Origin: Cupriavidus gilardii
Lineage (GTDB): Bacteria > Pseudomonadota > Gammaproteobacteria > Burkholderiales > Burkholderiaceae
DNA: 64,000 bases
Direction of reading: 5' to 3'
Assembly (NCBI RefSeq): GCF_008801915.1
Contig: NZ_VZOV01000001.1
Location: 62,001 to 126,000, forward strand
The first letter of the stretch is position 1. Each line of letters opens with the position of its first letter. The translations under genes and the position numbers were made by a program. The notes under the pieces are model-generated. The model ran no database searches and was not told where the DNA came from. It saw only the letters and a program-made list of their open reading frames with translations. Shown piece after piece: positions 8,774 through 59,335 of the stretch.

Positions 8774-8792
8774 GGTGGCAAGCGGCCGGCGT

Positions 8793-10853
8793 TCAGCTGG
8801 TAGTGTCTTCGGACCGCGTCTGCTGCCCGGATTGCAGATAGGCGACCGTGGCGCCGGCGGACAGCGTGCCCGCTTCGAGCAGACGCGCGGCGCCGGGCTC
8901 GCTCTCGGCCAGCAGCTCGCCTAGCGGCGCGTCGCCGCAGGAAACGACGGCGTCGCCGAGGTTGGCCCACAGTGTCAGCAGCGCGCCGTCCCCCAGGCGC
9001 CAGCTGGCGCGCACCGCCGCGTCGCCGAGCACGGCGGCGCCTTCGCTGCGCGTGCCCGGCAGCCGCGGCAGCAGCTCGCGCCGGCGCAGCGTGATCAGCG
9101 ACTTGTAGTACTGCGCGTATTCGCCGTCGGGGTCGAACTCGGGGCGCGATGCCTCGAAGGTGGTCGGCGCATTCGGGTCCGGAATGCTGTCCGCGCGCGC
9201 GCCGTCGGCAAAGCCGGCCATCGAGCCGAATTCGCGGCGGCGGCCTTCGCGCACGGCGTCGGCCAGTTCCGGCGGATGGCTGGTGAAATAGAGGAATGGC
9301 GTCTGCGTGCCGCCTTCCTCTCCCATGAAGACCATCGGGATCTGCGGGCACAGCATCTGCAGCGCGATCGCGGCGCGCAGCGGGCGTGGCCGGGCCAGCG
9401 CCGCGATGCGCTCGCCGAACGCGCGATTGCCGATCTGGTCGTGGTTCTGCAGGAAGCTGATGAACGCGGTCGGCGGCAGATGGGCGCTGCGCTGGCCGCG
9501 GTGGACGGGCTTGTCGCCGCCCGATTCGCGCGTGCGATGCGGCGACGCCTCGCCCTGATAGGCGAAGCCCTCGGCCAGCACGCGCGCCAGATGGCGGGTG
9601 GTGGGGCCGAGCGGCTGGTGGTCGCCCCGCGGTGCCGCGTCCTGGTCATAGGCGCGGCCGTAGTCCGGACCGGGATGGCTGCCGGAATCGGCGCGATGCG
9701 CGGCATCGGCGCCGGCGCCGAATTCGGGCGCGACCACCGCGCCATAGTCGGCGTAATAGCCGTCGTGCTCGCCGGTCAGCAGCACATGCAGCACGTGGTG
9801 TGCGTCATCGTTCCACTGCGCGTCGTAGCCGCCGGCCAGCAGCGCGGCGTCGTTGTTGTCGTTCTCCAGCACCAGATGGATCTGGCGGCCGGCGCAGCGC
9901 TGCCGCAGCGTCGGCGCCAGTTCGGCCAGCCAGCCCTCGTCGGCGATCGCATGCACCGCGTCGAGCCGCAGCCCGTCGAAGCGGAAGTCCTGCAGCCAGT
10001 AGCTGGCGTTCTCGGTGAAGAAGTCGCGCACCTCCTGCCGGCGGAAGTCGATGGCCGGGCCCCACGGCGTGCGCACATCCTCGCGGAAGAAGGCGCTGGC
10101 GTAGCGCGGCAGATAGTTGCCCTCGGGGCCGAAGTGGTTGTAGACCACGTCCAGCAGCACCATCATGCCCAGGCCGTGCGCCGCATCGATCAGCGCCCGC
10201 AGCTGGTCTGGCGTGCCGTAGCTCGATTCGGGCGCGAACGGCAGTACGCCGTCGTAGCCCCAGTTGCGGCTGCCGGGAAACTCGGCCAGCGGCATCAGCT
10301 CGATGGCGGTAAAGCCGAGTGCCGCCAGCCGCGGCAGTTCGCGCATCGCGCCGGCGTAGCCGCCGCACAGGCCGACGTGCATTTCGTAGACGATGGCTTC
10401 GTGCCAGGGCCGCCCCTGCCAGTACGGATGGCACCACTGATAGGTGGCCGGGTTGACCACCACGCTGGCGCCGTGCACGTCGCCGGCCTGGGCCCGCGAG
10501 GCCGGGTCCGGCACGATGGTGCCGTCGCCCAGGCGGAACCAGTAGCGCGCGCCCTCGCAACAGGCCACGGTGGCCTCGAACCAGCCGTCGGCGGCCGGCG
10601 TCATCAGCACCGGGCCGGCGTCGTGGATCTCGAGCCGGGGAATCTCGCCCTCGGCCGCCATATCGGGCGCCCACAGCCGGAAGCAGGTGCGGCCGTCGGC
10701 CAGCCGCAACGGTCCGAAGCGCGGCTGGCTGGCCGGCGCCGCTTCAGGCGCGCTGCCCAGCGGCGCGGCCGCCGGCGCGGTGCCCAACGTTTCCCAGCCG
10801 CCGCGCGGCTGGGCCGCGGCCGCCGCGGCAGCGGGATTCGGCTCTACGTTCAT
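8793..10853 (-). CDS. treZ: Malto-oligosyltrehalose trehalohydrolase
   Basis: Cleaves free trehalose from maltooligosyl-trehalose made by TreY (GH13, EC 3.2.1.141). 686 residues against about 560-620 usual. The extra length comes from an Ala/Pro-rich N-terminus (residues 1-45) and an insertion of about 50 residues (about 371-420, rich in Gly, Asp, His) before the last barrel strands. Catalytic residues are intact: Asp298 in DGLRLDAVH, Glu330 in LVLENDNN and Asp472 in LQNHDQIGNR. A carbohydrate-binding beta domain (about 45-145) precedes the barrel. The ATG at 10853 follows ACGGAAA. The gene lies 87 nt after glgA and 19 nt before treY. Confidence 0.95.
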   Translation of the reverse strand: MNVEPNPAAAAAAAQPRGGWETLGTAPAAAPLGSAPEAAPASQPRFGPLRLADGRTCFRLWAPDMAAEGEIPRLEIHDAGPVLMTPAADGWFEATVACCEGARYWFRLGDGTIVPDPASRAQAGDVHGASVVVNPATYQWCHPYWQGRPWHEAIVYEMHVGLCGGYAGAMRELPRLAALGFTAIELMPLAEFPGSRNWGYDGVLPFAPESSYGTPDQLRALIDAAHGLGMMVLLDVVYNHFGPEGNYLPRYASAFFREDVRTPWGPAIDFRRQEVRDFFTENASYWLQDFRFDGLRLDAVHAIADEGWLAELAPTLRQRCAGRQIHLVLENDNNDAALLAGGYDAQWNDDAHHVLHVLLTGEHDGYYADYGAVVAPEFGAGADAAHRADSGSHPGPDYGRAYDQDAAPRGDHQPLGPTTRHLARVLAEGFAYQGEASPHRTRESGGDKPVHRGQRSAHLPPTAFISFLQNHDQIGNRAFGERIAALARPRPLRAAIALQMLCPQIPMVFMGEEGGTQTPFLYFTSHPPELADAVREGRRREFGSMAGFADGARADSIPDPNAPTTFEASRPEFDPDGEYAQYYKSLITLRRRELLPRLPGTRSEGAAVLGDAAVRASWRLGDGALLTLWANLGDAVVSCGDAPLGELLAESEPGAARLLEAGTLSAGATVAYLQSGQQTRSEDTTS

Positions 10854-47227: not shown

Positions 47228-48637
47228 TCAATCGGTGCGCGACCAGCCGCCACCCATCGCCTGGTACAGCGCCACGCTGGCATTGAGCCAGTCCGCCTGT
47301 GCCTGGATCAGGCTCAGCTCCGCGCTCAGCAGCCCACGCTGGGCATCGAGCTGCTCCAGATACGGCGAATAGCCGGCGCGATAGCGGTTGGTCGCGTGGC
47401 GCAGCGCGGCCGCGAGCGCGTCGCGCTGCTGGCCCAGATGCAGTACCTGCGCCTCCAGCTGGCGCAGCGCCGCGAGGTTGTCGTTGACCTCGCGAAAGGC
47501 GGTCAGCGCGGTGCGGCGATAGGCGAAGGCCGCCTGATCGCGCTGGGCCGTGGCGACCTGGGCGCCGGCCTCGATGCGCCCGCCCTCGAACAACGGTGCC
47601 AGGATGCTGCCGCCGAGCGACCAGATGCGGACCGGGCTGGCGACGCCGCTCGCATACAGCAGGCCGGCCGATCCCGACAGATGCAGCCGCGGCAGGAAGG
47701 CCTTGCGCGCGGCGCTCAGATTGGCATCGCTCGCGGCCAGCTGGAATTCGGCCTGCGCGATATCGGGCCGCCGCCGCAGCAGGTCGGCGGGCAGGCCGTC
47801 GGGGATCGGCGGGGGCCGCAGCACGGAGAGCGCGGCGCCCCGCGCAATCTCTCCAGATGGCGACTCGCCGATCAGCAGCAGCAAGGCGTTCTCCTGGCGG
47901 GCGACGGCCAGCTCGGCCTGGGGCACCGCCTGCGCGGTCGATTCGTACTCGGCGCGCGCTTGCGCGAACTCGAGTTGCGAGGTGTAGCCGGCATCGGCAC
48001 GGCGCCGCGCCAGCCGCAAGGCATCCTCGCGGGCGGCCAGCGTCTGGCGTACCACGGCAAGCTGGGCATCGAGCGCGCGCAGCGTCAGATAGGCGCGCGC
48101 CGTGGCCGCTGCGACCGACAGCACCGCGGCGTCGTGCGCCGCTTCGCTGGCCTGCGTGCCGGCGCGCGCCGCCGTCGACTGGTCGGCCAGGCGCCCGAAC
48201 AGATCGACCTCATAGGCGGCCTGGAACTGCGGCTCGAATGAATTCGAGATCGATTCCCTTCCGAGCGCATTGAGGCTGCGCGAGCGCCCGCCGGTCGCGG
48301 TGGCGTCGAGCGTCGGCAGCAACTGGGCCCGCGCCAGCCGCTGCTGCGCGCGCGCTTCGGCGACGCGGGCCGCGGCGATGCCGAGATCGGCATTGCTGGC
48401 CAGCGCGCGCTCGACCAACTGCGCCAGCACCGGGTCGCCGTAGCGGCGCCACCAGTCTCGCTCGAGCGGCGCGCTGGGACCCGGGTCGACGCGCCATGCG
48501 GGCGGCGGCGTCAGCGCAGCGCCGGCCGGCGGCTGGGGCCGCGGGCCCATGCACGCGAACAGCAGCGGCAGTGCCGCGGCGCACAGCGCCATGCGCAACG
48601 ATGCCCGAATACGCGGGAGGCGGGTGGGGGCCGTCAT
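47228..48637 (-). CDS. Efflux outer membrane lipoprotein (NodT/OprM type)
   Basis: A TolC-like channel of 469 residues. The N-terminal signal ends in a lipobox LPLLFACMG with acylated Cys29. The coiled-coil repeats typical of the family are visible twice: ARVAEARAQQRLARAQLLPTL and AEFQLAASDANLSAARKAFLPRL (each quoted in part around LARAQLLP and SAARKAFLP). It forms the outer membrane exit for the pump encoded upstream. Its ATG overlaps the stop of the adaptor gene (ATGA). Confidence 0.93.
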   Translation of the reverse strand: MTAPTRLPRIRASLRMALCAAALPLLFACMGPRPQPPAGAALTPPPAWRVDPGPSAPLERDWWRRYGDPVLAQLVERALASNADLGIAAARVAEARAQQRLARAQLLPTLDATATGGRSRSLNALGRESISNSFEPQFQAAYEVDLFGRLADQSTAARAGTQASEAAHDAAVLSVAAATARAYLTLRALDAQLAVVRQTLAAREDALRLARRRADAGYTSQLEFAQARAEYESTAQAVPQAELAVARQENALLLLIGESPSGEIARGAALSVLRPPPIPDGLPADLLRRRPDIAQAEFQLAASDANLSAARKAFLPRLHLSGSAGLLYASGVASPVRIWSLGGSILAPLFEGGRIEAGAQVATAQRDQAAFAYRRTALTAFREVNDNLAALRQLEAQVLHLGQQRDALAAALRHATNRYRAGYSPYLEQLDAQRGLLSAELSLIQAQADWLNASVALYQAMGGGWSRTD

Positions 48638-49824
48638 CGCGTGCGGGACTCCGCTCCCCGCGTATCGACCTCGACCCGCACCGACATGCCGGGCCGCAGC
48701 CGCGCCGCGAGAGGCTGGTTCGGGTCGATGGCGATACGCACCGAGATCCGTTGCGCGACCTTGACGAAGTTGCCGGTCGCGTTGTCCGGCTGGATCACCG
48801 CGAACTCCGAACCCGCGGCGGGCGCCAGCTGTTCGACGCGGCCGGTCAGCCGGGCATCGTCGAGCCCGTCGACGCGGAAGCTCGCGGGCTGGCCCGGCGC
48901 CATGTGCGAGGTCTGTGCCTCCTTGTAGTTGGCGATCACCCACAACTTCGGCGGCACCAGGAACATGGCCTGCGTGCCGGCCGTGACGTACTGGCCCAGG
49001 CGCGCGCCGATCTGGCTCAGCTGCCCGTCCTGCGGGGCACGCAGCACGGTATTGGCCAGGTCGATCTCGGCCAGCTTCAACGCCGCGCGCGCCGCTTCGA
49101 CTGCCGCCTGCAGCCCCTCGCGGCTGACCGCGACGGCCTGCACGTCCTGACGGGCAATCTCGGTGGCGGCGCGGGCCTGGCGCACCGCCGCCTCGGCCTG
49201 CCGCAATGCGGCGCGGGTCTGGTCGCGTTCGCGCAGCGACACCGAGCCGTCCGCCACCAGCTCGTCGACCCGCCGCATATCGGCCTGCGCCCGCAGCAAT
49301 TGCGCCTGCGCGTTGGCAAGGCTCGCCTGCTGCGCCAGCACCGTCGCTTCGCGCGAGCGGCGCGTCTGGTCGGTGTTGTTCAGGTTGGCGATCTGCGTGT
49401 CGAGGTTCGCGCGGGCCTGCTCGACCCGCTGGCGATAGATGCGGTCGTCGATCTTGAGCAGCACATGTCCCGCCTTGACCTGCTGGAAGTCGCGCACCGG
49501 AACATCGGTGACATAACCGCTGACCTGCGGGCTGATCACGGTCGTCTGCCCGCGCACATAGGCGTTGTCGGTGCCCTGGATCACGCGCGTGAAGGGCGGC
49601 AGTCCCCACGCGTACAGGATGATCAGGATGCTGACGAGCGCGATCGCGACGACGATGATCGTGGCCCGCCGCGTGCCCTTGGGCGGCGACCAGCCGGTCG
49701 GCGGGGCCGAGGCCTGTTGGGGGACCTCGACGGGATCCTGCAGGCGCTCGTGCGAATCCGTCTGCCCGGTCCCGTGCGCGGAAGGGGCGGGGCCGGGTTC
49801 GCGGCGCGGCGTTGGGTCGGTCAC
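48634..49824 (-). CDS. HlyD/EmrA family membrane fusion protein
   Basis: A 396-residue periplasmic adaptor. It has a Pro-rich cytoplasmic N-terminus, one membrane helix (about 54-74), a lipoyl-like half motif around TTVISPQVSGYVTDVPV, a long helical hairpin (about 125-235) and the second half around TVLRAPQDGQLSQIG, then a beta-barrel. The EmrA-like motif GTDNAYVRG precedes the lipoyl half. The GTG at 49824 follows CTGGAG. It lies 33 nt after the MFS gene and overlaps the outer membrane gene. Confidence 0.94.
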   Translation of the reverse strand: MTDPTPRREPGPAPSAHGTGQTDSHERLQDPVEVPQQASAPPTGWSPPKGTRRATIIVVAIALVSILIILYAWGLPPFTRVIQGTDNAYVRGQTTVISPQVSGYVTDVPVRDFQQVKAGHVLLKIDDRIYRQRVEQARANLDTQIANLNNTDQTRRSREATVLAQQASLANAQAQLLRAQADMRRVDELVADGSVSLRERDQTRAALRQAEAAVRQARAATEIARQDVQAVAVSREGLQAAVEAARAALKLAEIDLANTVLRAPQDGQLSQIGARLGQYVTAGTQAMFLVPPKLWVIANYKEAQTSHMAPGQPASFRVDGLDDARLTGRVEQLAPAAGSEFAVIQPDNATGNFVKVAQRISVRIAIDPNQPLAARLRPGMSVRVEVDTRGAESRTR

Positions 49825-49857
49825 CGGTGGCTCCAGATGTTGTTCTTGTTGTCGATG

Positions 49858-51531
49858 CTATTGCTGGCGCTGCCGCATTCTGGCCATCGCTTCCAGCGGC
49901 TCGGCCATCGGATTGTGGCCACGAATACGATCGCGGATATAGAGCGCCAGCAGCCAGGCGAAGGTCGCGGACGCGATGATGCCGATCGTCAGGAACACGT
50001 CGTTGAACGCCAGCACATTGGCCTCGCGCGTGACCTGCTGGGCCAGCAGCGCCGAACCCTCGGCCTGCCGCAGCGCGGGATCGGTCAGCACGCGTCCGTA
50101 GGCGCCGCCCAGCGCCTGGATGCGGGCTGCATCGAGCGGGTCGGTCAGCGTGATCGACTGCACCAGCGAGTGCGAATGGAATTTCTCGCGATGGATCTGA
50201 AAGGTGCCGAGCAGCGCCGAGCCGGCGAGACCGCCCAGCGCTTGCGTGATGCCGAACAGCGCCGAGAAGCTGACGATATGGCTCATGCCCCTGGACAGCG
50301 CGCGCAGCATGCCGATCAGCAGCGTCGGCCCCATGAAATAGACCGCGGCGAAGGCGATCAGCGCCTGGCTGAAATACATGTTGGCCGGCCGCGTCAGATT
50401 GTTGGAGTGCGCATCCATGAAGGCGCCGATCGCAATCAGCAGCAGGGAGATGCGGATCGGCCGCTCGAGATTCAGCGGATTGACCGTCAGCGCGCTGACC
50501 GCCAGGCCCGCGATGGTCGCCAGCGAAACGACGACGTACAGCGGCACCAGCTGGTCGTTGCCCATGCCCAGCGCGGTCAGCAACCCGACCGCGCCGTAGG
50601 CCTGCTCCGACAGCAGCACGCGCACGGCGATCGCCACCAGCGCAAAGCGCAGCATCGCGCGGCTGCCCAGCCAGCGTGTGTTCAGCAGCGGGTTGGCACG
50701 GTTATGCTCGATCCACAGGGCCGCGGTGATCAGCGCCACCGCTCCGCACAGCGCATAGCCGAGCCAGGCGGCCTCGGTCCACCACAGGATGCGGCCCTGG
50801 CTCAGCACCGCGCACAACAGCGCCATGCCGGGCGCGAACAGCGCGAACGTCAAGAAATCGAGCTTCTCGAAGGCGCGGATGCGCTCGCTGGGCGGCAGCC
50901 GCAGCAGGCCCACCGCGACCAGCGACAGCAGCGCGAGACCGAGCTCGAACAGGTACAGCGCCTTCCAGTTGCCGGCCTCCAGCATGCCGGAGGTCAGGAC
51001 GCGGGCCAGCGGCGTGGCCAGTTGCGGCACGCCGATGCCCAGCACGATCGCCTTGAGCCGGTGCGCTGCCGGCATCGACTGGATCATGTAGTACAGCGCC
51101 AGCGTGCTCAGTCCGCTCGCCGCGATGCCATTGGCCGCGCGGACCAGCAACGCGGTCTCGAAGGTATGGACGAAGATGTGGGCAAGCGTGATGACGACGT
51201 AGCCGAGCAGGAACAGCCGCGCGAAATGCTGCAGGCCGTACTGCTGCCGGAACTTGATCAGCAGCATGCTGGCGCAGACGTTGGTCATCACGTAGACCGT
51301 CGACAGCCACGCCGCCTGGTCGCTGTAGAGACCGAACACGCCCTGGATATTGTTCAGGTTGGCGATCACCAGCGCGTTGCCGAAGCCGCCGGTCAGGCCG
51401 ATCAGCACGCCGACACAGAAATAGCCGATGCGCCGTGGCATCGGATGATCGGGCGTCGCGGGAGAGCCCGGAATGGTGGGCCGCTCGTGCGGCTTGAACT
51501 GGTATTCGGCCGTGGCAGCGCCCATTGGCAT
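49858..51531 (-). CDS. MFS drug efflux transporter of the DHA2/EmrB type
   Basis: A 557-residue transporter with about 14 membrane segments, the number typical of DHA2. Conserved pieces are DQAAWLSTVYVMTN in the second helix region and a long last loop (about 450-510) before the final helix. With the HlyD adaptor and the outer membrane lipoprotein it would form a complete pump from cytoplasm to outside. Substrate is unknown; relatives export aromatic acids, fusaric acid or hydrophobic drugs. The ATG at 51531 has no strong site; ATG at 51525 is an alternative. Confidence 0.92.
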   Translation of the reverse strand: MPMGAATAEYQFKPHERPTIPGSPATPDHPMPRRIGYFCVGVLIGLTGGFGNALVIANLNNIQGVFGLYSDQAAWLSTVYVMTNVCASMLLIKFRQQYGLQHFARLFLLGYVVITLAHIFVHTFETALLVRAANGIAASGLSTLALYYMIQSMPAAHRLKAIVLGIGVPQLATPLARVLTSGMLEAGNWKALYLFELGLALLSLVAVGLLRLPPSERIRAFEKLDFLTFALFAPGMALLCAVLSQGRILWWTEAAWLGYALCGAVALITAALWIEHNRANPLLNTRWLGSRAMLRFALVAIAVRVLLSEQAYGAVGLLTALGMGNDQLVPLYVVVSLATIAGLAVSALTVNPLNLERPIRISLLLIAIGAFMDAHSNNLTRPANMYFSQALIAFAAVYFMGPTLLIGMLRALSRGMSHIVSFSALFGITQALGGLAGSALLGTFQIHREKFHSHSLVQSITLTDPLDAARIQALGGAYGRVLTDPALRQAEGSALLAQQVTREANVLAFNDVFLTIGIIASATFAWLLALYIRDRIRGHNPMAEPLEAMARMRQRQQ

Positions 51532-51715: not shown

Positions 51716-52522
51716 TCAGGCGGCCATGGCGCGCCGTTCGTCTTCCGTCAGTTGCGGACCATCGAGCGTCACGCGCGAATCGTCGTGACGGAACTTGCGG
51801 ATGATCGGCTTCAGTTCCTCCTTGATATGGTCCTCGCTGTAGCCGTTGAACAGGTGGCCGAGCAGGCCGCGGCGCAGATCGCTGGTGCCCATCAGCCAGT
51901 CGGCGATCGGGAAGGTCAGGTTCATGTTGTAGTGCATCATGATTCCCTGGTTGTGGTGCGCGGTATGGTGCCGGCGAATGGTGTTGATGAACGGCATGTT
52001 GCGCACGAACCAGTTGTCGTGGACATGGCAGCAGTAGTGGAAGACCTCGTAGACCAGGTAGTGCCCGACCATCGTCATGAAGACGATATAGGCGGCGTTG
52101 GCATTGATCAGCAGATAGGCCAGATAGCCGAGCAGACCGCCGCCGACGCCCAGCGTGATCAGCACGCGCCAGGGGAAGAACACGATGCGGAATTCGCGCG
52201 TGGTGTCGATCGTGGGTTCGTTGTCGGTGAAGTACTGGTGATGCTGGCGTGTGTGCCGCTCGTAGATGGCGCGCAGCGCAAACACGTCGATGCGCCGGTG
52301 CATCACGTACTTGTGCATGAACCATTCGACCAGATTGCCGGCGAGAAAGACCGGCAGCACCAGCAGCCACTCCCAGGTTGCGTTCTCCAGCCGCGTCGCG
52401 CAGTAATAGAGCGCCGCGATGCCGGCGGCGAAGATCACGCCGATATGCAGCAGGCCGTTGTACAGCGGGCTGATATCGGCCTTGTACTGCTCGCGGAATT
52501 TGCGTTGGCGTTCGCTCATCAT
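51716..52522 (-). CDS. Fatty acid hydroxylase/sterol desaturase family membrane enzyme
   Basis: A 268-residue di-iron membrane oxygenase. Histidine clusters are HKYVMH (about 69-74), HTRQHHQYF (about 90-98) and RRHHTAHH (about 184-191), with further His in VGHYLVYEVFHYCCHVH. About four membrane segments surround them. These enzymes use O2 to hydroxylate or desaturate lipids; the substrate cannot be read. The ATG at 52522 follows AGGAGACAACATC. The palindrome TACTAATATATTAGTA lies 35 nt upstream, shared with two neighbouring transcripts. Confidence 0.9.
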   Translation of the reverse strand: MMSERQRKFREQYKADISPLYNGLLHIGVIFAAGIAALYYCATRLENATWEWLLVLPVFLAGNLVEWFMHKYVMHRRIDVFALRAIYERHTRQHHQYFTDNEPTIDTTREFRIVFFPWRVLITLGVGGGLLGYLAYLLINANAAYIVFMTMVGHYLVYEVFHYCCHVHDNWFVRNMPFINTIRRHHTAHHNQGIMMHYNMNLTFPIADWLMGTSDLRRGLLGHLFNGYSEDHIKEELKPIIRKFRHDDSRVTLDGPQLTEDERRAMAA

Positions 52523-52556: not shown

Positions 52557-52572
52557 TACTAATATATTAGTA
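52557..52572. promoter_or_regulatory. Operator palindrome, copy 1 (fatty acid hydroxylase gene)
   Basis: TACTAATATATTAGTA is a perfect 16-nt palindrome with the core CTAATATATTAG (52559-52570). It lies 35 nt before the ATG at 52522. The same 12-nt core occurs before the genes starting at 54084 and 56368. Confidence 0.8.
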
Positions 52573-52633
52573 GTATATGGCGCGGTGTCAAACGATTTGT
52601 GTCGCGATCGGCCGTGCCGTGCCCATCAAGCAA

Positions 52634-52657
52634 ACGGCCCTCGCAAGCGAGGGCCGT
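52634..52657 (-). terminator. Rho-independent-type hairpin after the MFS gene
   Basis: ACGGCCCTCGC (52634-52644) and GCGAGGGCCGT (52647-52657) form a perfect 11-bp stem with a 2-nt centre. In the minus direction it is followed by TTTGCTT. It lies 47 nt past the stop of the MFS gene. Confidence 0.75.
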
Positions 52658-52704
52658 CGACGTTCTGTCGTCCCGCCTGCCCGCGGAACGACATGGCGGG
52701 CCGG

Positions 52705-54084
52705 TCAGCTCGACACTTCCTCGAGGCACCGGCCCTTGGTCTCGATGCCGAGCCACAGCACGGCGATCGCGGCGATCGCGAACGACAGCGCGCCCAGCGT
52801 GAAGATGCCGCCCTGGCCCGTGACGGGCAGCAGCACCCCGACCAGATAGGGGCCGACCAGCGAGCCGATGCGGCCGATCGACGAGGCGAAGCCGGAACCG
52901 GTGGCACGCGAGCGCGTCGGATACAGCTCGGGCGTGTAGGCATACAGCACCGACCACATGCCGAACAGGAAGAACTGCATGCACAGGCCGGCGGCGATCA
53001 GCTGTTCGACCGGCAGCTTCAGCACGGCCGCTTGCCCATACAGATAGGCGGACGCGGCGCTGCCGAGCAGCATCAGCGCACAGGTTGGCTTGCGCCCCCA
53101 TTTCTCGAGCAACCACGCCGAGAAGATGAAGCCGGGAATACCGGCCAGCGAGATATAGACGGTGTACAGCACCGACTTGGTCACCGCGTAGCCGGCCTGT
53201 TGCAGCAGCGCACCGAGCCAGGTGGTCAGGCCGTAGTAGCCGAGCAGCGCGAAAAACCACACGCCCCACAGCATCACGGTGCGCCTGGCGTACGGGCCTT
53301 TCCACAGCTCGCCGAACATCGTCTTTCGATCGTGGACCGCGGCCGGCGCAAAGCCCTGCTGGACGGCGGGCAACGGCTTGCCGCTGGCACGCTCCACGCG
53401 TGCCTCGATGCCGGCCATCACCGCCTCGGCTTCGCGCTGCCGTCCCGCTCCCTCGAGCCAGCGCGGGGATTCCGGCACCATCCGGCGCACCACGAAGACG
53501 AACGCCGCCGGCAGCGCCATCGCGATGAAGATGCCGCGCCAGCCGATCACCGGCAAGGTCAGGTAGGCCAGCAGTCCAGCGGCGATAAAGCCGATCGGCC
53601 AGAAGCCCTCGAGGATCGCGACATACTTGCCGCGGCTCCTGGCCGGCACGATCTCCGACACCATCGACAGTCCGATCGGAAACTCCATGCCCATGCCGAA
53701 GCCGAGCAGCACGCGATACAGCATCAGCGAGGTCACGCTGTCCGCCAGCCCGCACATCAGGCTGCCCACGCCCCAGAAGATCATGCTGACCTGGAACACC
53801 GGCTTGCGGCCGAAGCGGTCGGCCAGCATGCCGGCCACGGCTGCGCCGGCAAACATGCCCAGAAAGCTGGAACTGGCAAGCAGGCCGGTCTGCGCCGCGC
53901 TCAGGCCGAATTCGGCTTTGATCGAGCCGAGCACGAAGGTCATCATGCCGAGGTCCATCGAATCGAAGAACCAGGCGGTCGCGATGATGCCGAACAAGGT
54001 GCGTTGATAGCGGGTCATGGGAAGGCGCTCGAGCCGCGCCGCGACTCCGGGGGTCAGCGCCACACTGCCTGCCGACATGTCCAT
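52705..54084 (-). CDS. MFS transporter, metabolite:proton symporter type
   Basis: A 459-residue transporter with 12 membrane helices. Typical motifs are FDSMDLGMMTF in helix 1, the loop ADRFGRKP after helix 2, the loop PESPRWL at the middle, and LLEKWGRKPT in the second half. This pattern fits the sugar porter/AAHS side (aromatic acid or nicotinate-like uptake) rather than efflux. The ATG at 54084 follows AGGAGACAACC. The operator core CTAATATATTAG lies 46 nt upstream. Likely the uptake system for the substrate handled by the neighbouring dehydrogenase and hydrolase (inference). Confidence 0.9.
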   Translation of the reverse strand: MDMSAGSVALTPGVAARLERLPMTRYQRTLFGIIATAWFFDSMDLGMMTFVLGSIKAEFGLSAAQTGLLASSSFLGMFAGAAVAGMLADRFGRKPVFQVSMIFWGVGSLMCGLADSVTSLMLYRVLLGFGMGMEFPIGLSMVSEIVPARSRGKYVAILEGFWPIGFIAAGLLAYLTLPVIGWRGIFIAMALPAAFVFVVRRMVPESPRWLEGAGRQREAEAVMAGIEARVERASGKPLPAVQQGFAPAAVHDRKTMFGELWKGPYARRTVMLWGVWFFALLGYYGLTTWLGALLQQAGYAVTKSVLYTVYISLAGIPGFIFSAWLLEKWGRKPTCALMLLGSAASAYLYGQAAVLKLPVEQLIAAGLCMQFFLFGMWSVLYAYTPELYPTRSRATGSGFASSIGRIGSLVGPYLVGVLLPVTGQGGIFTLGALSFAIAAIAVLWLGIETKGRCLEEVSS

Positions 54085-54129
54085 GGTTGTCTCCTGTCGT
54101 TGTCGTGGGGCCGCCTGTCGGCGGTCTGA

Positions 54130-54141
54130 CTAATATATTAG
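54130..54141. promoter_or_regulatory. Operator palindrome, copy 2 (MFS gene)
   Basis: CTAATATATTAG, a perfect 12-nt palindrome, 46 nt before the ATG at 54084. On the minus strand it shares the 18-nt string ATCCATCTAATATATTAG with copy 3, so the similarity extends beyond the core. Confidence 0.8.
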
Positions 54142-54266
54142 ATGGATGCTATGGGTATGCAAGCTGCGTGCGGCCGCGGATGTGCCGGGATGGCGCCGGG
54201 AAGGCCGTGTTTTCAGCCGGAAAGCGTGATTGGACGCGGCCTGCCGGGCGCCGCTCGGGATTTGCC

Positions 54267-55577
54267 CTAGGCCACCCGGCGCGAGGTCGGAGCCGCTCGA
54301 TGGGCGGCGAGTTCGCCGCGCCACGCATGCTCGATCACCTGCGCATAAGTGCCCGGCACGTCGTCGACGGGAAACGCCTGTGCCAGCCGGGTGACGCCCA
54401 ATGCGTCGCGCGTCAGAGCGGGCAACGCGTCGCGCGGGACGCCGAAGGCCTGCAGGTTCGACGGGATGTCGAGCGCGTCGATCAAATTGCGCACGGCCAG
54501 CGGCACGCCGGCGATGCGCTCGGCGTCGCTGTCCGCGTCGACACCGAACAACGGCGCGAGCGCCAGCAGATCGGCGCCACGCGTGGTGCGCAGCGCGTCC
54601 AGCACATAGGGCAGCATCACCGCATTGGTACTGCCGTGCGAGCGGTGGGTCAGGCCCGCGACGGCATAGGCGATGCCATGCACCGCATTCAGGCCGGCGC
54701 TGCCGTAGGACAACGCGGCGTAGAGGCTGGCATAGGACATGCCGATTCGCGCTTCGATATCGCGGCTGCCGGCAGCACCGTGGCCCGTGTCGCCGACGTA
54801 GCCGCTGTCGCGATAGGCGCGCAGCAGGTAGCGGCTGCACAGCGCGATCGCCTCGCGGGCGAACAGCATCGTCAGCGCCGAGCGGCCGCTGTAGCCGGGA
54901 TCGGCGTTGCCTTGCCGCGGGTAAGCCGCGCTGTCGACGGTCAGGTACGACTCGATCGCATGCGTCAGCGCATCGATGCCGGCATCCGCGGTCACGCGCG
55001 GCGGACAGGTGTAGGTGAACTCGGGATCGATCAGCGCGATCTGCGGACGCAGCGCGTTGTCCATCACCGCGATCTTGGTCGCGTTGTCGGGGTCGACGAG
55101 GATCGCGCCAGGGGTCGCCTCGGAACCGGTGCCGGACGTGGTCGGCAGCGCGACCAGCGGTATCGGCCGCGTGCCGGCGGGCAACGCACCGGCGAACTCG
55201 CGCACAGGCCGGCCTTCCAGCAACGTCAGGCTCAAGGCCTTGGCAAGGTCGATATTGCTGCCGCCGCCCAGCGCGACCAGATGATCGGGAACACGGCCAC
55301 CGAGCCGCGCGCGCAGCGTTAGCGTGGCCTCGTCGCACAGCGTCGTGCTCGGATCCGGCATGCCGCCGTCGTAGACCACCGTCTCGATGCCCGCGGCGCT
55401 CGCGGCCTCGATGTACTCGGCGACCCACGGCGTGTGTTCGGTGAAGAAGGTGTCGGTGACCAGCACGCCGTGACGATGGCCGAGGCGCTGCAACAGCGCC
55501 GGCAATTGCGCGCGCGTACCGGCGCCGACGATCAGACGCGCCGGCGCGCAGAAGTAGACCAGGTCTTCGATTCTCAT
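54267..55577 (-). CDS. Iron-containing alcohol dehydrogenase family protein
   Basis: A 436-residue dehydroquinate synthase-like NAD-dependent oxidoreductase. The nucleotide loop GGGSNIDLAKAL (about 97-108) and the TTSGTGSEATP motif (about 139-149) are present. Metal ligands are Asp and His in DAGIDALTHAIES and His in LNAVHGIAYAVAGLTHRSHG (two His about 14 residues apart). It could be a maleylacetate reductase or a hydroxy-acid or alcohol dehydrogenase; sequence alone does not decide. The ATG at 55577 has GGAG upstream and overlaps the hydrolase stop (ATGA), so the pair is an operon. Confidence 0.9.
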   Translation of the reverse strand: MRIEDLVYFCAPARLIVGAGTRAQLPALLQRLGHRHGVLVTDTFFTEHTPWVAEYIEAASAAGIETVVYDGGMPDPSTTLCDEATLTLRARLGGRVPDHLVALGGGSNIDLAKALSLTLLEGRPVREFAGALPAGTRPIPLVALPTTSGTGSEATPGAILVDPDNATKIAVMDNALRPQIALIDPEFTYTCPPRVTADAGIDALTHAIESYLTVDSAAYPRQGNADPGYSGRSALTMLFAREAIALCSRYLLRAYRDSGYVGDTGHGAAGSRDIEARIGMSYASLYAALSYGSAGLNAVHGIAYAVAGLTHRSHGSTNAVMLPYVLDALRTTRGADLLALAPLFGVDADSDAERIAGVPLAVRNLIDALDIPSNLQAFGVPRDALPALTRDALGVTRLAQAFPVDDVPGTYAQVIEHAWRGELAAHRAAPTSRRVA

Positions 55578-56368
55578 GGCAGCTCCAGGGGGATGGACGG
55601 AGAGGGGGCAGGCGTGTCCCCGGTGCGGATCGAGTCGGCGAGCTGTCGCAGCCACGGCGAGGCGAACTCGCAGACTGCATCGGCATGACCGGTCAGCAGG
55701 CCATGGCCGGCGCGTTCGATGGTGGCCAGACGGCCGGCGGGCAATCCATTGGCCAGCGCCTGCGCATGGGGCCAGGGGCAGTCGTCGTCATCGCGGCCAT
55801 GAACGACCAGGGCCGGCATCGGCAGCGTAGCCAGGCGCGAACGCTGATCGGTCTGCCGGATCGCCTGCCACGTCAACGCGACGGCGGCGTGGTCGGCTGC
55901 CTCGCTCAACCCCAGGCGACGCTCGCGCGCGGCGATCTCATCCAGCAGTGCCGCACCTTCGTCGGCGCGAAACCAGCGCGTTTGGCACAGGGCAGGCGAC
56001 CCCGACAGCAACCACAGCGCGAGCGGCGAGCGTGCCTGGCCACGGCCGTCGCGGTAACGGTCCGCGTACTGCAGCGCCACCGACACGCCCATGCTCCATC
56101 CCGCCAGCACGAAGCGACGCCCACCGGCATGCCGTTCCACGACCTCGCGTACCGCGGCCGCATAGCGCTCCAACGTGTACCCGCCGGCCGTCGCCGGCCG
56201 CGGCGCCGCCCCTCGTCCCTGCAGATTCGGCAGCACGAAGGTACAGAGCGCGCTCAATCGCTGCGCCACCGGCAACCACGCCGCCCGCGTCCCCTGGATG
56301 CCGTGCAGCGCCACCACGCACAACGGCCCGCTGCCGACTTCGATCACTTCCATGGAGTCTGCCGCCAT
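55574..56368 (-). CDS. Alpha/beta hydrolase
   Basis: A 264-residue hydrolase with the standard fold. The oxyanion motif is ALHGIQGT, the nucleophile Ser lies in AGWSMGVSV (GxSxG, about residue 92), the acid in VVHGRDDDDCP and the His in ERAGHGLL. Substrate is unknown; esters, lactones or beta-ketols are possible. The ATG at 56368 follows AGGAGACACC, and the operator copy 3 lies directly in front of that site. It leads the two-gene operon with the iron-type dehydrogenase. Confidence 0.9.
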   Translation of the reverse strand: MAADSMEVIEVGSGPLCVVALHGIQGTRAAWLPVAQRLSALCTFVLPNLQGRGAAPRPATAGGYTLERYAAAVREVVERHAGGRRFVLAGWSMGVSVALQYADRYRDGRGQARSPLALWLLSGSPALCQTRWFRADEGAALLDEIAARERRLGLSEAADHAAVALTWQAIRQTDQRSRLATLPMPALVVHGRDDDDCPWPHAQALANGLPAGRLATIERAGHGLLTGHADAVCEFASPWLRQLADSIRTGDTPAPSPSIPLELP

Positions 56369-56381
56369 GGTGTCTCCTGTA

Positions 56382-56399
56382 CATCTAATATATTAGATG
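56382..56399. promoter_or_regulatory. Operator palindrome, copy 3 (hydrolase-dehydrogenase operon)
   Basis: CATCTAATATATTAGATG is a perfect 18-nt palindrome with core CTAATATATTAG (56385-56396). It lies 14 nt before the ATG, next to the ribosome binding site; bound repressor would block the early transcribed region. A -10-like TATGAT lies just upstream on the minus strand. Confidence 0.82.
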
Positions 56400-56491
56400 G
56401 ATCATAGTAGTGTACAGAATGGCGGGATGGCAAGCGGACAGTCGGCATGGAGAGGGAGGTCAGTGGACTACCTGCATCGGCTCCATGCAGG

Positions 56492-56547
56492 TTTTCACTG
56501 AAATGACCCCTTTCAGCATTTGCTGAAAGGGCCCGTTTCAGTGAAAA
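56492..56547. promoter_or_regulatory. Nested inverted repeat in front of the AbiE genes, likely AbiEi operator
   Basis: Outer arms TTTTCACTGAAA (56492-56503) and TTTCAGTGAAAA (56536-56547) enclose inner arms CCCTTTCAGCA (56508-56518) and TGCTGAAAGGG (56521-56531). The TTTCAG core recurs in all four arms. A separate small hairpin CTGCAT/ATGCAG lies at 56472-56490. AbiEi antitoxins of known systems repress their own promoter by binding inverted repeats, which fits this structure. Confidence 0.75.
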
Positions 56548-56588
56548 TCTGGCACACAGACTGTCGAGCAACGCGCCCCTTCCATCAG

Positions 56589-57662
56589 ATGACGCTCACC
56601 GAAGTCGCGACCCAAGCACTTGAACGCGAGGCGACCGCGTTGCGCACGCTATTGCGGCAGGTGCCAGTGATCGAACGCCTCGAGTTGGCAACCGCCTTTC
56701 CCGAAGACTTGGGGCCGGGCGTTGTCGCCGACATTTGCGTCGAGGACCGGTGCCATACGCTGGTCTGTCGTGTTGTCACAAGCGGCCAACCCCGCCATGT
56801 GCGAGCCGCATTGCTGGAGCTTCGGCATCTCGCGGCGGTTGGCGGTCGGGACGACGCGACGCCAGTGCTGATTGCACCGTATCTCTCCGCCGCAGCGCGG
56901 GCCTTGTGCCGCGAGCACAATGCGGGTTACCTCGACCTCGAGGGCAATGTTCACCTCGTATTCGGCACCGTCTTCATCGAGCGGACGGTGACAAGCAAGC
57001 CGTTGGCCGAACGCCGCGACCTCCGTTCCTTGTTCAAGCCGAAGTCGGCGCAGATGCTGCGCGTGATGCTGCGAGAGCCAGGGCGCGCGTGGCGCGTCAC
57101 GGCACTGGCCGAAGCCGCCGGCATCAGCCTCGGCCACGCCAGCAATGTCCGAGCCGGCTTGCTCGATCGCGAGTGGGCGAAGGTCTCGCGCGACGGTCTA
57201 TCCCTGAGCGATCCCGATGCGCTGCTCGATGCCTGGCGCGACGCCTACGAGCCGCCGGTCGGCAAGCGTCACGGCTTCTATACGCCCCTGCATGGCAGTG
57301 CGCTCGAGCATGCGGTACGAGATGCGATGCGGACGCGGACCGGACTGATGACGCTTGCCTCATTCTCGGCGGCGCAATGGCTAGCCCCCTATGCCCGCAC
57401 GGCGACGCAGTATTTCTATGCCGACGAGGCGGGACTCGAACAACTGCGCTCGGCGTTGAAATTGTCACCGGCATTGAAAGGCGAGAATGCCGTGGTGATG
57501 ACGCTGGAGGACCATGGTCCGTTCCGCGATACGGTCGAGCCGGCCCCCGGTGTCATCTGCACGAGTCCCGTTCAGACCTACCTCGACCTCGCGAATGCCG
57601 GCGAACGGGGCAGGGAAGCGGCCGGTCATCTGCGGCAACATCAGCTCGCCTGGCACACATGA
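56589..57662 (+). CDS. AbiEi family antitoxin of a type IV toxin-antitoxin system
   Basis: A 357-residue protein with the two-part AbiEi layout. An N-terminal and middle part (about 1-150) includes the AREHNAGYLDLEGNVHL-like segment (ALCREHNAGYLDLEGNVHL, near 105-125). A winged helix-turn-helix follows in SAQMLRVMLREPGRAWRVTALAEAAGISLGHASNVR (quoted in part: RAWRVTALAEAAGISLG, about 180-200). The C-terminal part, with APGVICTSPVQTYLDLA, is typical of the antitoxin domain. I chose the ATG at 56589; an in-frame TTG at 56520 falls inside the operator and a GTG at 56541 is possible. Its stop overlaps the toxin start (ATGA). Confidence 0.82.
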   Translation: MTLTEVATQALEREATALRTLLRQVPVIERLELATAFPEDLGPGVVADICVEDRCHTLVCRVVTSGQPRHVRAALLELRHLAAVGGRDDATPVLIAPYLSAAARALCREHNAGYLDLEGNVHLVFGTVFIERTVTSKPLAERRDLRSLFKPKSAQMLRVMLREPGRAWRVTALAEAAGISLGHASNVRAGLLDREWAKVSRDGLSLSDPDALLDAWRDAYEPPVGKRHGFYTPLHGSALEHAVRDAMRTRTGLMTLASFSAAQWLAPYARTATQYFYADEAGLEQLRSALKLSPALKGENAVVMTLEDHGPFRDTVEPAPGVICTSPVQTYLDLANAGERGREAAGHLRQHQLAWHT

Positions 57663-58522
57663 AATCCGGTGAACCGCAATCCGCGGTGGACTACGACGAT
57701 CGCACGACAGCGGCGGTCCAGACGGTACTGATCGAAATCGGTCAGATTCTTGGCAGCTTCAAGGGAAAATTCGCCATTGTCGGCGGCGCGGTGCCCTGGT
57801 TATTGCTGGGCAAGACAGACGATATGCCGCATGTCGGCACCATGGACGTCGATCTGGGACTGGATGCCGAGGCCTTGGGCGACGGCCAGTATGCGACGCT
57901 GGTCGACGCGCTGAGGCAGCACGGATACGAAAAGCGCCGTACGCTCCGGCGCTTTCAGTTGGTGCGCGAGGTCCCTGCAATGGACGACGGCCCGCCGATC
58001 GATGTCATCGTCGATTTCCTGATGCCGCGGGATGCCGAGATCGTGAAGAACGTTCCGCCGTTGATCAGCGACTTTGCGGTACAGCGTGCCGACGGCACGG
58101 ATCTCGCGCTGCGCTTCTACCAGATGGTGGCGATTGCAGGACCGATGCCGACTGGCGGGACCAATCGCGTGGAAATTGCGGTGTGCTCGATTCCGGCGCT
58201 GCTTGCGATGAAGGGGCATGCGCTAGCCGGGCGCTACAAACAGAAGGATGCCTACGACATCTATTACTGCATCCGCAACTACCCCGGAGGACCCGAGGCG
58301 CTCGCCCAGGCTTGCCGTCCATTGCTCGATCACCCGAGTGGCGCGATCGGCTTCGATTGCATCGCGCGCAAGTTCGATACGGTAGAGGGCTTCGGGCCGA
58401 CCTGTGTGCGAAGGTTTGTCGAGGATACCGATGTCCTGCGCGACCGGACGCCCGAACAGTGGCAGCAGGATGCGTTCGGACAGGTCGATGCCTGGCTGCG
58501 GGCGCTTGGCTTGCGTCGCTGA
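57659..58522 (+). CDS. AbiEii/AbiGii family nucleotidyltransferase toxin
   Basis: A 287-residue DNA polymerase beta-like nucleotidyltransferase. Motif 1 is IVGGAVPWLLLG followed by GTMDVDLGLD (catalytic acids about 62-66), with a third acid in IDVIVDF. The family's second signature is LLAMKGHALAGRYKQKDAYDIYY (quoted in part: GRYKQKDAYDIY, about 193-204). AbiEii toxins arrest growth by modifying RNA, as shown for tRNA acceptor ends in mycobacterial MenT relatives; the target here is unknown. It overlaps the antitoxin stop (ATGA). The pair may act in phage defence by abortive infection. Confidence 0.85.
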   Translation: MKSGEPQSAVDYDDRTTAAVQTVLIEIGQILGSFKGKFAIVGGAVPWLLLGKTDDMPHVGTMDVDLGLDAEALGDGQYATLVDALRQHGYEKRRTLRRFQLVREVPAMDDGPPIDVIVDFLMPRDAEIVKNVPPLISDFAVQRADGTDLALRFYQMVAIAGPMPTGGTNRVEIAVCSIPALLAMKGHALAGRYKQKDAYDIYYCIRNYPGGPEALAQACRPLLDHPSGAIGFDCIARKFDTVEGFGPTCVRRFVEDTDVLRDRTPEQWQQDAFGQVDAWLRALGLRR

Positions 58523-58576
58523 GCGTCGCGGCCATATCGCTGCCGGGTTTCCCGCTCGCACGCAAAATGACTCATA

Positions 58577-58603
58577 TACAATTTGCATTCGTCAAACATG
58601 CAA
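58577..58603 (+). promoter_or_regulatory. TACAAT -10-like box and inverted repeat at the GntR start
   Basis: TACAAT (58577-58582) resembles a sigma70 -10 box, though no good -35 is placed. It abuts TTGCAT (58583-58588) and ATGCAA (58598-58603), an inverted repeat with a 9-nt spacer over the start of the GntR gene, compatible with autoregulation. Confidence 0.35.
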
Positions 58604-59335
58604 ACGACGTCAATGGTCAAGAAAGCGGCGACAGTCAGGCGGGCGGCGGCCCATGTCGAGGATGACGGCAGCGAGAACGGGGCCGGGCCGCGGGGGCGGC
58701 TGACGGACCAGGCCTATCGGTGGATCGAGGAAGCGATCGTCACGCTGCAGCTTGCGCCTGGATCGTCGGTCTCCGAATTCCAGTTGAGCGAGATGACGGG
58801 CATCGGCCGCACGCCGATCCGCGAGGCGATTCAGCGGCTGGCGCGCGAGCATCTGATCGTGGTGCTGCCGCAGCGCGGCCTGCTGGTTCCGCCGATCGAC
58901 GTGGCCAAGCAATTGCGGCTGCTGGAGACGCGGCGCGAGGTTGAGCGGTTGATCTGCCGCAGCGCGGCTCGCCGTGCCACGGTCGAGGAGCGCCAGGCCT
59001 TCCGGCGCCTTGCCGCCGAGTTCGAGCGCGCAGTCAAGAAAGGGGACGAAGTCGCGTTCGTGCGCGCCGATGCGGGTTTCAACGAGCTCTGTCTGCAGGC
59101 CGCGCGCAACGAATTCGCCGAGGGCGCGATGCGGTTGATGCATGGGCTGTCGCGCCGCTTCTGGTATTTTCACTACAAGCAGGCCGCCGATCTTCCGGAG
59201 ATGGCGCGCCTGCACGCCCGTGTTGCCGCTGCCATCGCCGAGGGCGATGTCGATGGCGCGGGCGAGGCGCTCGACGCGCTGCTGGACAATATCGAGGACT
59301 TCACCCGCGCGACCGTGCTGGGCGACCGCCGCTAG
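58598..59335 (+). CDS. GntR family regulator, FadR/FCD subfamily
   Basis: About 245 residues. The N-terminal winged helix-turn-helix (about 30-95) shows LTDQAYRWIEEAIVTLQLAPGS, then SEMTGIGRTPIREAIQRL, and PQRGLLVPPID in the wing. The all-helical FCD effector domain (about 105-235) has RREVERLICRSAARR, and metal-binding candidates Asp and His in ADAGFNELCLQAARN and RLHARVAAAI. The start is uncertain: ATG at 58598 and ATG at 58613 are both in frame and neither has a ribosome binding site. It is the nearest regulator gene of this type to the CTAATATATTAG operators, but the AbiE genes lie between. Confidence 0.88.
   Translation: MQTTSMVKKAATVRRAAAHVEDDGSENGAGPRGRLTDQAYRWIEEAIVTLQLAPGSSVSEFQLSEMTGIGRTPIREAIQRLAREHLIVVLPQRGLLVPPIDVAKQLRLLETRREVERLICRSAARRATVEERQAFRRLAAEFERAVKKGDEVAFVRADAGFNELCLQAARNEFAEGAMRLMHGLSRRFWYFHYKQAADLPEMARLHARVAAAIAEGDVDGAGEALDALLDNIEDFTRATVLGDRR

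Follow-up and report, generated by a model that had tools for sequence, protein, structure and literature searches.

A putative palindromic operator and its candidate FCD/GntR regulator at a catabolic gene cluster of Cupriavidus gilardii

Described systems and the operator copies in C. gilardii

The described systems closest to the locus considered here are repressors of the GntR type whose operators overlap -10 boxes. Our subject is a 12-nt palindrome, CTAATATATTAG, that precedes three neighbouring transcripts in a 64,000-nucleotide stretch of the Cupriavidus gilardii genome (assembly GCF_008801915.1, contig NZ_VZOV01000001.1, positions 62,001 to 126,000; the whole stretch is hereafter called the window, and positions are counted from its first letter). 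In the accessible sections of the study on Atu1419 of Agrobacterium fabrum, that protein is likewise an FCD regulator (VanR group) and a repressor; its 10-bp palindrome has the same two-base centre as ours (ATGTATACAT against TAATATATTA), and its sites likewise stand before neighbouring catabolic genes and overlap -10 boxes (PMC7797058). It differs in its target genes and in requiring G at position 3 of the site, where A kills binding and where the present site has A. The accessible portion of a second paper describes AlkR of Pseudomonas aeruginosa SJTD-1 as a GntR/VanR-type repressor beside the membrane hydroxylase gene alkB2, with its operator over the -10 region; that operator (ATTGTCAGACAAT) does contain GT...AC, alkB2 encodes an alkane monooxygenase, and no set of hydrolase, iron-containing alcohol dehydrogenase and MFS transporter is described there (PMC12042122). 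More broadly, operators of the FadR subfamily are A/T-rich palindromes with the consensus TKGT/ACMA and commonly lie in a divergon that includes the gene of their regulator, as here; NanR and BioR are listed as exceptions to that consensus in the accessible part of PMC4494728.

From sequence comparisons, we consider it highly likely that the FCD/GntR protein encoded at 58598..59335 (plus strand) uses CTAATATATTAG as its operator; it would repress three promoters until a small molecule releases it. Exact matches to the 12-mer were located at 52559..52570, 54130..54141 and 56385..56396 (copies 1 to 3; no strand assigned), respectively 36, 45 and 16 nt ahead of the start codons of a fatty acid hydroxylase/sterol desaturase superfamily gene (FAH; 268 aa, 51716..52522; PF04116), an MFS transporter gene (52705..54084) and an alpha/beta hydrolase gene (ABH; 55574..56368), measured from the edge of the 12-mer. 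All three first genes lie on the minus strand. The ABH gene is the first of a two-gene transcript, the second gene of which encodes an iron-containing alcohol dehydrogenase (Fe-ADH; 54267..55580, minus strand), overlaps the hydrolase end and is without an operator of its own; the MFS, ABH and Fe-ADH assignments come from Pfam. The first-pass annotation of this DNA had reported a perfect 12-nt palindrome before the three transcripts, at distances of 35, 46 and 14 nt; the exact matches bear out the palindrome and its position before the start codons, and the distances are corrected by a trivial amount. The extension of copy 1 to 16 nt (TACTAATATATTAGTA) and of copy 3 to 18 nt (CATCTAATATATTAGATG), and the sequence common to copies 2 and 3 (18 nt on the minus strand, ATCCATCTAATATATTAG), were likewise as annotated.

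No further match was found in the 64 kb at up to two mismatches, and dinucleotide shuffles of the window yielded on average 0.00 exact matches and 0.01 at up to two mismatches. Throughout the genome (5,792,089 bases in 115 contigs), the three copies were the only matches, exact or with at most one mismatch, and the reversed 12-mer, used as a control, gave none. The first-pass annotation had judged chance copies very unlikely and had proposed a genome-wide search, in which many copies unrelated to promoters would have spoken against a regulon; shuffle means were near zero, all copies in the genome were at this cluster, and every copy in the genus lay upstream of a gene, as described below.

Conservation and promoter context

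Exact copies of the 12-mer were present in 43 of 60 Cupriavidus genomes, 72 in total; the reversed pattern was absent from all 60. DNA around every copy was fetched, and genes were accepted if they started -40 to +330 nt from the site. All 72 copies were gene-upstream: 40 at this cluster (10 before FAH, 9 before MFS, 21 before ABH) and 32 at two other operons. At 18 of the 21 ABH copies the orthologous GntR gene was divergent on the far side of the site; the remaining three were this window, a locus with an AbiEi-like gene between (L064) and locus L077. With GntR starts taken from alignments, 16 loci have 82-118 nt between GntR gene and site; in L063 (C. cauae) and L065 (C. gilardii USM5) the gap is about 240 nt.

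Twenty-five of the copies away from the cluster (loci among L083-L117) preceded an ILVD/EDD-type dehydratase gene in an operon with an RraA-like gene, with another FCD GntR gene divergent on the far side in 24 cases and a contig end in one. Seven preceded a mandelate-racemase/glucarate-dehydratase-type gene, each with a third FCD gene divergent on the far side. Another FCD-type GntR gene thus adjoined 31 of the 32 non-cluster copies, and the 60 genomes held no exact copy outside these three operon types. A homologue of the dehydratase-type regulator (E 1e-40) was found in only two of 150 genomes of the order, each with a one-mismatch site; these loci (L227 and L228, of two other genera) carry the 12-mer with a central mismatch between the FCD GntR gene and the dehydratase and RraA-like operon. 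The glucarate-type copies belonged to seven Cupriavidus genomes (L091, L095, L097, L100, L109, L112, L115). That the glucarate-type GntR is a conserved user of the operator beyond these seven was not supported by a homologue scan: 18 loci, this genome's included and L245 left out, had no exact copy, and one (L237) had a single two-mismatch match.

For comparison beyond the genus, the locus set comprised 26 from Cupriavidus, three from other families (L120-L122) and a further 64 from outside the genus; one was too near a sequence end, leaving 92 FAH rows. The loci are mostly from Burkholderiales, and the 64 include Herminiimonas, Oxalicibacterium, Achromobacter, Paraburkholderia, Pandoraea, Alcaligenes and Comamonas as well as Pseudomonadaceae (three Stutzerimonas, one Pseudomonas); 16 Cupriavidus loci of the wider set were left out because their contigs were already among the genus loci. 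Matches were kept at identities of at least 60% (FAH), 60% (MFS), 38% (ABH) and 50% (Fe-ADH), gene starts less than 160 nt from where the fetched DNA stops were dropped, and sites were sought in the 150 nt before each gene at up to two mismatches. The listing that gave the start-codon distances and the upstream variants of L120-L122 took only matches of at least 45% identity. A site was found before 79 of 92 FAH, 48 of 61 MFS, 49 of 60 ABH and 3 of 64 Fe-ADH genes (reversed-pattern control: 0/92, 1/61, 0/60 and 0/64).

Gene order varies among these loci, and the operator follows promoters rather than genes. Fe-ADH genes directly behind ABH had no site (0/55), compared with 3/9 of those placed otherwise; FAH directly behind MFS likewise had none (0/5), whereas FAH with its own promoter had one in 72 of 80 cases. 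Behind Fe-ADH, FAH kept its site in 7/7 loci, with intergenic distances of 40-51 nt, and MFS had none (0/3, against 48/58 for MFS otherwise). In the three loci where no ABH was found (L082, L118, L119), a one-mismatch site precedes Fe-ADH. In L120-L122, only GntR and FAH of the five cluster genes were found together, and FAH was preceded by the variants TTGATATATCAG, CTGATATATCAC and CTAACATATCAG (3, 3 and 2 mismatches). The operator of the relatives is roughly CTRAYATRTYAG, both arms are conserved out to the outer C and G, and the core is kept while flanks differ between copies and species. The 12-mer is thus a putative conserved operator, confined to three copies in this genome and found ahead of these genes in other genera too. 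Both the small local regulon of the first-pass annotation and its guess that the GntR protein at 58598 takes part are accordingly well supported.

The copies lie in or beside probable promoter elements. At the hydroxylase gene, a -35 hexamer TTGACA (52586..52591, minus strand) stands 16 nt before TAATAT (52564..52569, minus strand), the probable -10 hexamer by its spacing, which lies within copy 1; this TTGACA-N16-TAATAT promoter overlaps the 12-mer. At the MFS gene, a -35-like TTGCAT (54157..54162, minus strand) stands 16 nt before the TAATAT within copy 2. The putative -10-like box of the hydrolase transcript, TATGAT (56401..56406, minus strand), lies just upstream of copy 3 and ends 4 nt before it, so that copy 3 would cover the transcription start. 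Offsets of TTGACA were scanned across the loci, omitting genes whose starts were closer than 200 nt to an end of the fetched DNA. For the 79 hydroxylase sites the match was best 21 nt ahead of the operator, with a mean of 2.92 of 6 matches against a median of 1.42 over offsets, for the 48 MFS sites offsets -20 (2.67) and -21 (2.46) were best (median 1.5), and for the hydrolase sites no -35 position stood out in the same scan.

The proposed sequence of events is as follows: a GntR dimer would bind the palindrome at the three promoters and block them, sitting over the -10 box at the hydroxylase and MFS genes and over the region just after a -10-like box at the hydrolase-dehydrogenase transcript. 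Repression would likely proceed by occlusion of RNA polymerase, since the 12-mer overlaps the TTGACA-N16-TAATAT promoter and overlap of the site with the -10 box is reported for Atu1419 and AlkR. The inducer would be a small molecule, most probably the substrate of the pathway or one of its intermediates; it would bind the FCD domain and free the promoters of the regulator, and uptake, hydroxylation, hydrolysis and alcohol oxidation would be induced jointly.

The candidate regulator and competing explanations

The regulator gene is proposed as the binder of all three operators from its domains and its linkage in relatives. Its open reading frame is also open from a TTG codon at 58583, and over 58583-59332 it matched GntR (PF00392; 51.2 bits, cut-off 27) and FCD (PF07729; 78 bits, cut-off 24.3) in Pfam. 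As is usual for FCD/GntR regulators, though not defining for them, a palindromic site lies near the regulator gene and its targets. An AlphaFold2 model (mean predicted local distance difference test score, pLDDT, 81.5; predicted template modelling score, pTM, 0.74) gave a winged helix and six C-terminal helices (residues 102-126, 129-147, 151-169, 172-195, 199-214 and 218-244). By helix count the modelled effector domain agrees with the VanR group, which has six helices, FadR having seven (accessible text of PMC7797058). A comparison of this GntR with PDB sequences matched, among others, AlkR (9isw). Just 5' of the regulator gene, at 58571-58585, stands CTCATATACAATTTG, which is conserved in L063-L066; it may be the promoter or an autoregulatory site of that gene.

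Residues were counted in 103 and 99 homologous rows that include repeats of the same genomes, with the five commonest residues per column listed for the 103. At regulator position 162 of a VanR-type metal site we would expect His; D158, N162 and H206 were 100% conserved in the 99 sequences. A metal site of three His and an Asp or Asn occurs in some VanR-group members. The residues of the DNA-binding domain that bear on base preference were L, A, Q, F or S at position 28 in 101 of 103 rows, Pro at position 40 in all 103 and Gln, Arg or Lys at position 59 in all 103; published numbering was matched through what we take to be the FadR sequence. Such residues imply a fit to an A/T-rich site. At one site position Arg28 and Gly59 prefer G/C and Pro40 avoids it, as given in the accessible part of PMC4494728.

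Several observations weigh against this protein as the binder. Arg38 (Arg45 of FadR), the helix Arg that reads G in Atu1419, was kept in 103 of 103 rows, and position 3 of the site was A in 76 of 79 FAH, 46 of 48 MFS and 49 of 49 ABH sites at up to two mismatches; in the opposite half-site, every one of these sites had A (T as printed) at the position of the consensus G. Atu1419 binding was abolished when its position-3 G was changed to A, as the accessible sections report (PMC7797058). The present site, TRAT-AT-ATYA, is without the GT...AC of the FadR consensus as given in the accessible part of PMC4494728, its G/C pair being A/T; the TKGT/ACMA box, usual but not defining for FCD/GntR regulators, is absent here. 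The genome holds 24 FCD-domain loci, so another protein could bind. In seven loci (L153, L156-L160, L162) ABH and GntR stand side by side and ABH has no site at up to two mismatches (best 4); they account for 7 of the 11 site-less ABH genes which, with 8 FAH and 10 MFS genes, had no cluster gene close upstream and yet no site at that threshold. Loci L215 and L216 have the GntR gene and no such site before FAH, L155 has sites before FAH and MFS although its 17.9 kb of fetched DNA contained no homologue of GntR, and this genome's own homologue of the glucarate-type GntR (L229, 78% identity) is without the 12-mer. In the dehydratase-operon FCD protein, Gln replaces the recognition-helix Arg (four sequences looked at). 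It is conceivable, if rather doubtful, that at least two FCD/GntR regulators share an operator with an all-A/T core even though their reading helices differ (Arg in the hydroxylase-cluster protein, Gln in that of the dehydratase operon), so that unrelated catabolic operons within one genome are cross-wired or are separated only by the flanks of the 12-mer.

Could the 12-mer, here and at the dehydratase and glucarate operons, instead be the site of some other regulator, whether another FCD protein or a global factor, leaving the local GntR with another site? The identical 12-mer does adjoin three different FCD genes in the genus, the hydroxylase-cluster FCD protein retains its base-reading Arg though the site offers A/T, and the conserved CTCATATACAATTTG upstream of its gene could be a separate control site. 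We nevertheless find this improbable: the only copies in this genome are at the GntR-linked cluster, the exact copies of the genus are confined to the three operon types, and in L120-L122 the linkage shrinks to FAH and this GntR, accompanied by operator variants.

It seems very unlikely that the 12-mer is merely a strong, AT-rich, symmetric -10 element, although at the hydroxylase gene TAATAT, spaced 16 nt from the upstream TTGACA, fits a -10 box. A plain -10 box would recur genome-wide rather than match three times, and conservation here takes in the two arms as far as the outer C and G. At the dehydratase operon, moreover, the 12-mer lies between TTGAC(G/A) and T(T/C)TAAT, 17 nt apart, in 25 of 25 exact sites; on this promoter reading, which is our own, it would be promoter spacer and not a -10 box, and because of that position the plain -10-box explanation was rejected. 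Chance, or a dispersed or mobile repeat, can hardly account for the copies. The 18 nt common to copies 2 and 3 would suit a duplicated promoter, but flanks differ between copies and species where the core is kept, and both explanations were rejected on the shuffles (0), the rarity in the genome, the reversed controls (0 in 60 genomes) and the conservation of the 12-mer upstream of genes at orthologous promoters. An operator of the local FCD/GntR protein is the explanation that we prefer.

Pathway, neighbouring genes and comparison with known systems

The retained set of hydroxylase, hydrolase, Fe-ADH and MFS transporter (or other transporter families in some loci) looks like one for small-compound catabolism. 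The hydroxylase scored 30.6 bits against PF04116, just below the 31-bit cut-off, and the lipid hydroxylation of the first-pass annotation derives solely from this superfamily match. H70, H75, H90, H94, H95, H162, H166, H185, H186, H189 and H190 of the protein were invariant in 33 sequences; it was 99% identical in C. cauae, a Cupriavidus sp. metagenome-assembled genome and C. gilardii records, and had no meaningful match among PDB sequences. The closest Pfam models of the transporter were aromatic-acid/H+ symporters, at scores below cut-offs. PDB sequence matches put the hydrolase close to esterases and haloperoxidases, and Fe-ADH close to methanol dehydrogenases and lactaldehyde reductases. 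We also considered, and rejected, a connection with a fatty acid hydroxylase of C. taiwanensis that is induced by root exudate: its gene lies on the symbiotic plasmid with a nod-box ahead, and in the accessible text it has less than 40% identity to orthologues found in other bacterial genomes (PMC5789663).

In L179 and L185, a periplasmic binding protein gene carries a site. In L121, a gene at 7369-9330, flanked by those for GntR and the hydroxylase, encodes a corrinoid-binding protein, part of which weakly resembles URO-D; CTAGTATGTTAG stands 41 nt ahead of this gene. These extra site-bearing genes suggest a second transporter type; they do not point to a substrate.

Within the window, an AbiEi-like antitoxin gene (56520..57662) and an AbiEii-like nucleotidyltransferase gene (57659..58522), both on the plus strand and outside the regulon, form a toxin-antitoxin-like pair that parts the regulator from copy 3 by 2.2 kb. 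No AbiEi match was found at the corresponding place in L063 or L065, where an inverted repeat resembling window 56490-56549 remains (13244-13303 in L063). Because the repeat is still there without an AbiEi match, the pair appears to have been lost from these two loci, its promoter repeat staying behind. Directly downstream of the hydroxylase gene (48634-51531, minus strand) is an EmrAB-like export pair, then, by eye, an outer-membrane-factor-like gene; among the fetched genus loci, the EmrAB-like pair beside the hydroxylase was seen only in L063-L065.

The analysis supplies a precise operator and a candidate regulator for a set of enzymes and a transporter that recurs in many Burkholderiales. 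The regulator could help to find the substrate, as the compound that releases it is probably the compound of the pathway. Because the operator departs from the GT...AC rule, the pair is also a good test of how the very common FCD regulators read DNA.

A search of open-access PMC for the 12-mer and the gene set found no description of either. Among published exceptions to the FadR consensus, the BioR site, TTATMKATAA, differs in sequence from the operator here (accessible part of PMC4494728). Closer at hand, the dehydratase and RraA-like operon and the glucarate-dehydratase-type and aldehyde dehydrogenase operon of Cupriavidus have the exact 12-mer between an FCD gene and a divergent operon, as at this cluster, but they differ in their distinct FCD proteins (Gln for Arg in the dehydratase type) and in other flanking bases. 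The cluster is thus a well-supported local regulon of a known type, undescribed in the literature searched; what sets it apart is an all-A/T core that is shared by distinct FCD proteins.

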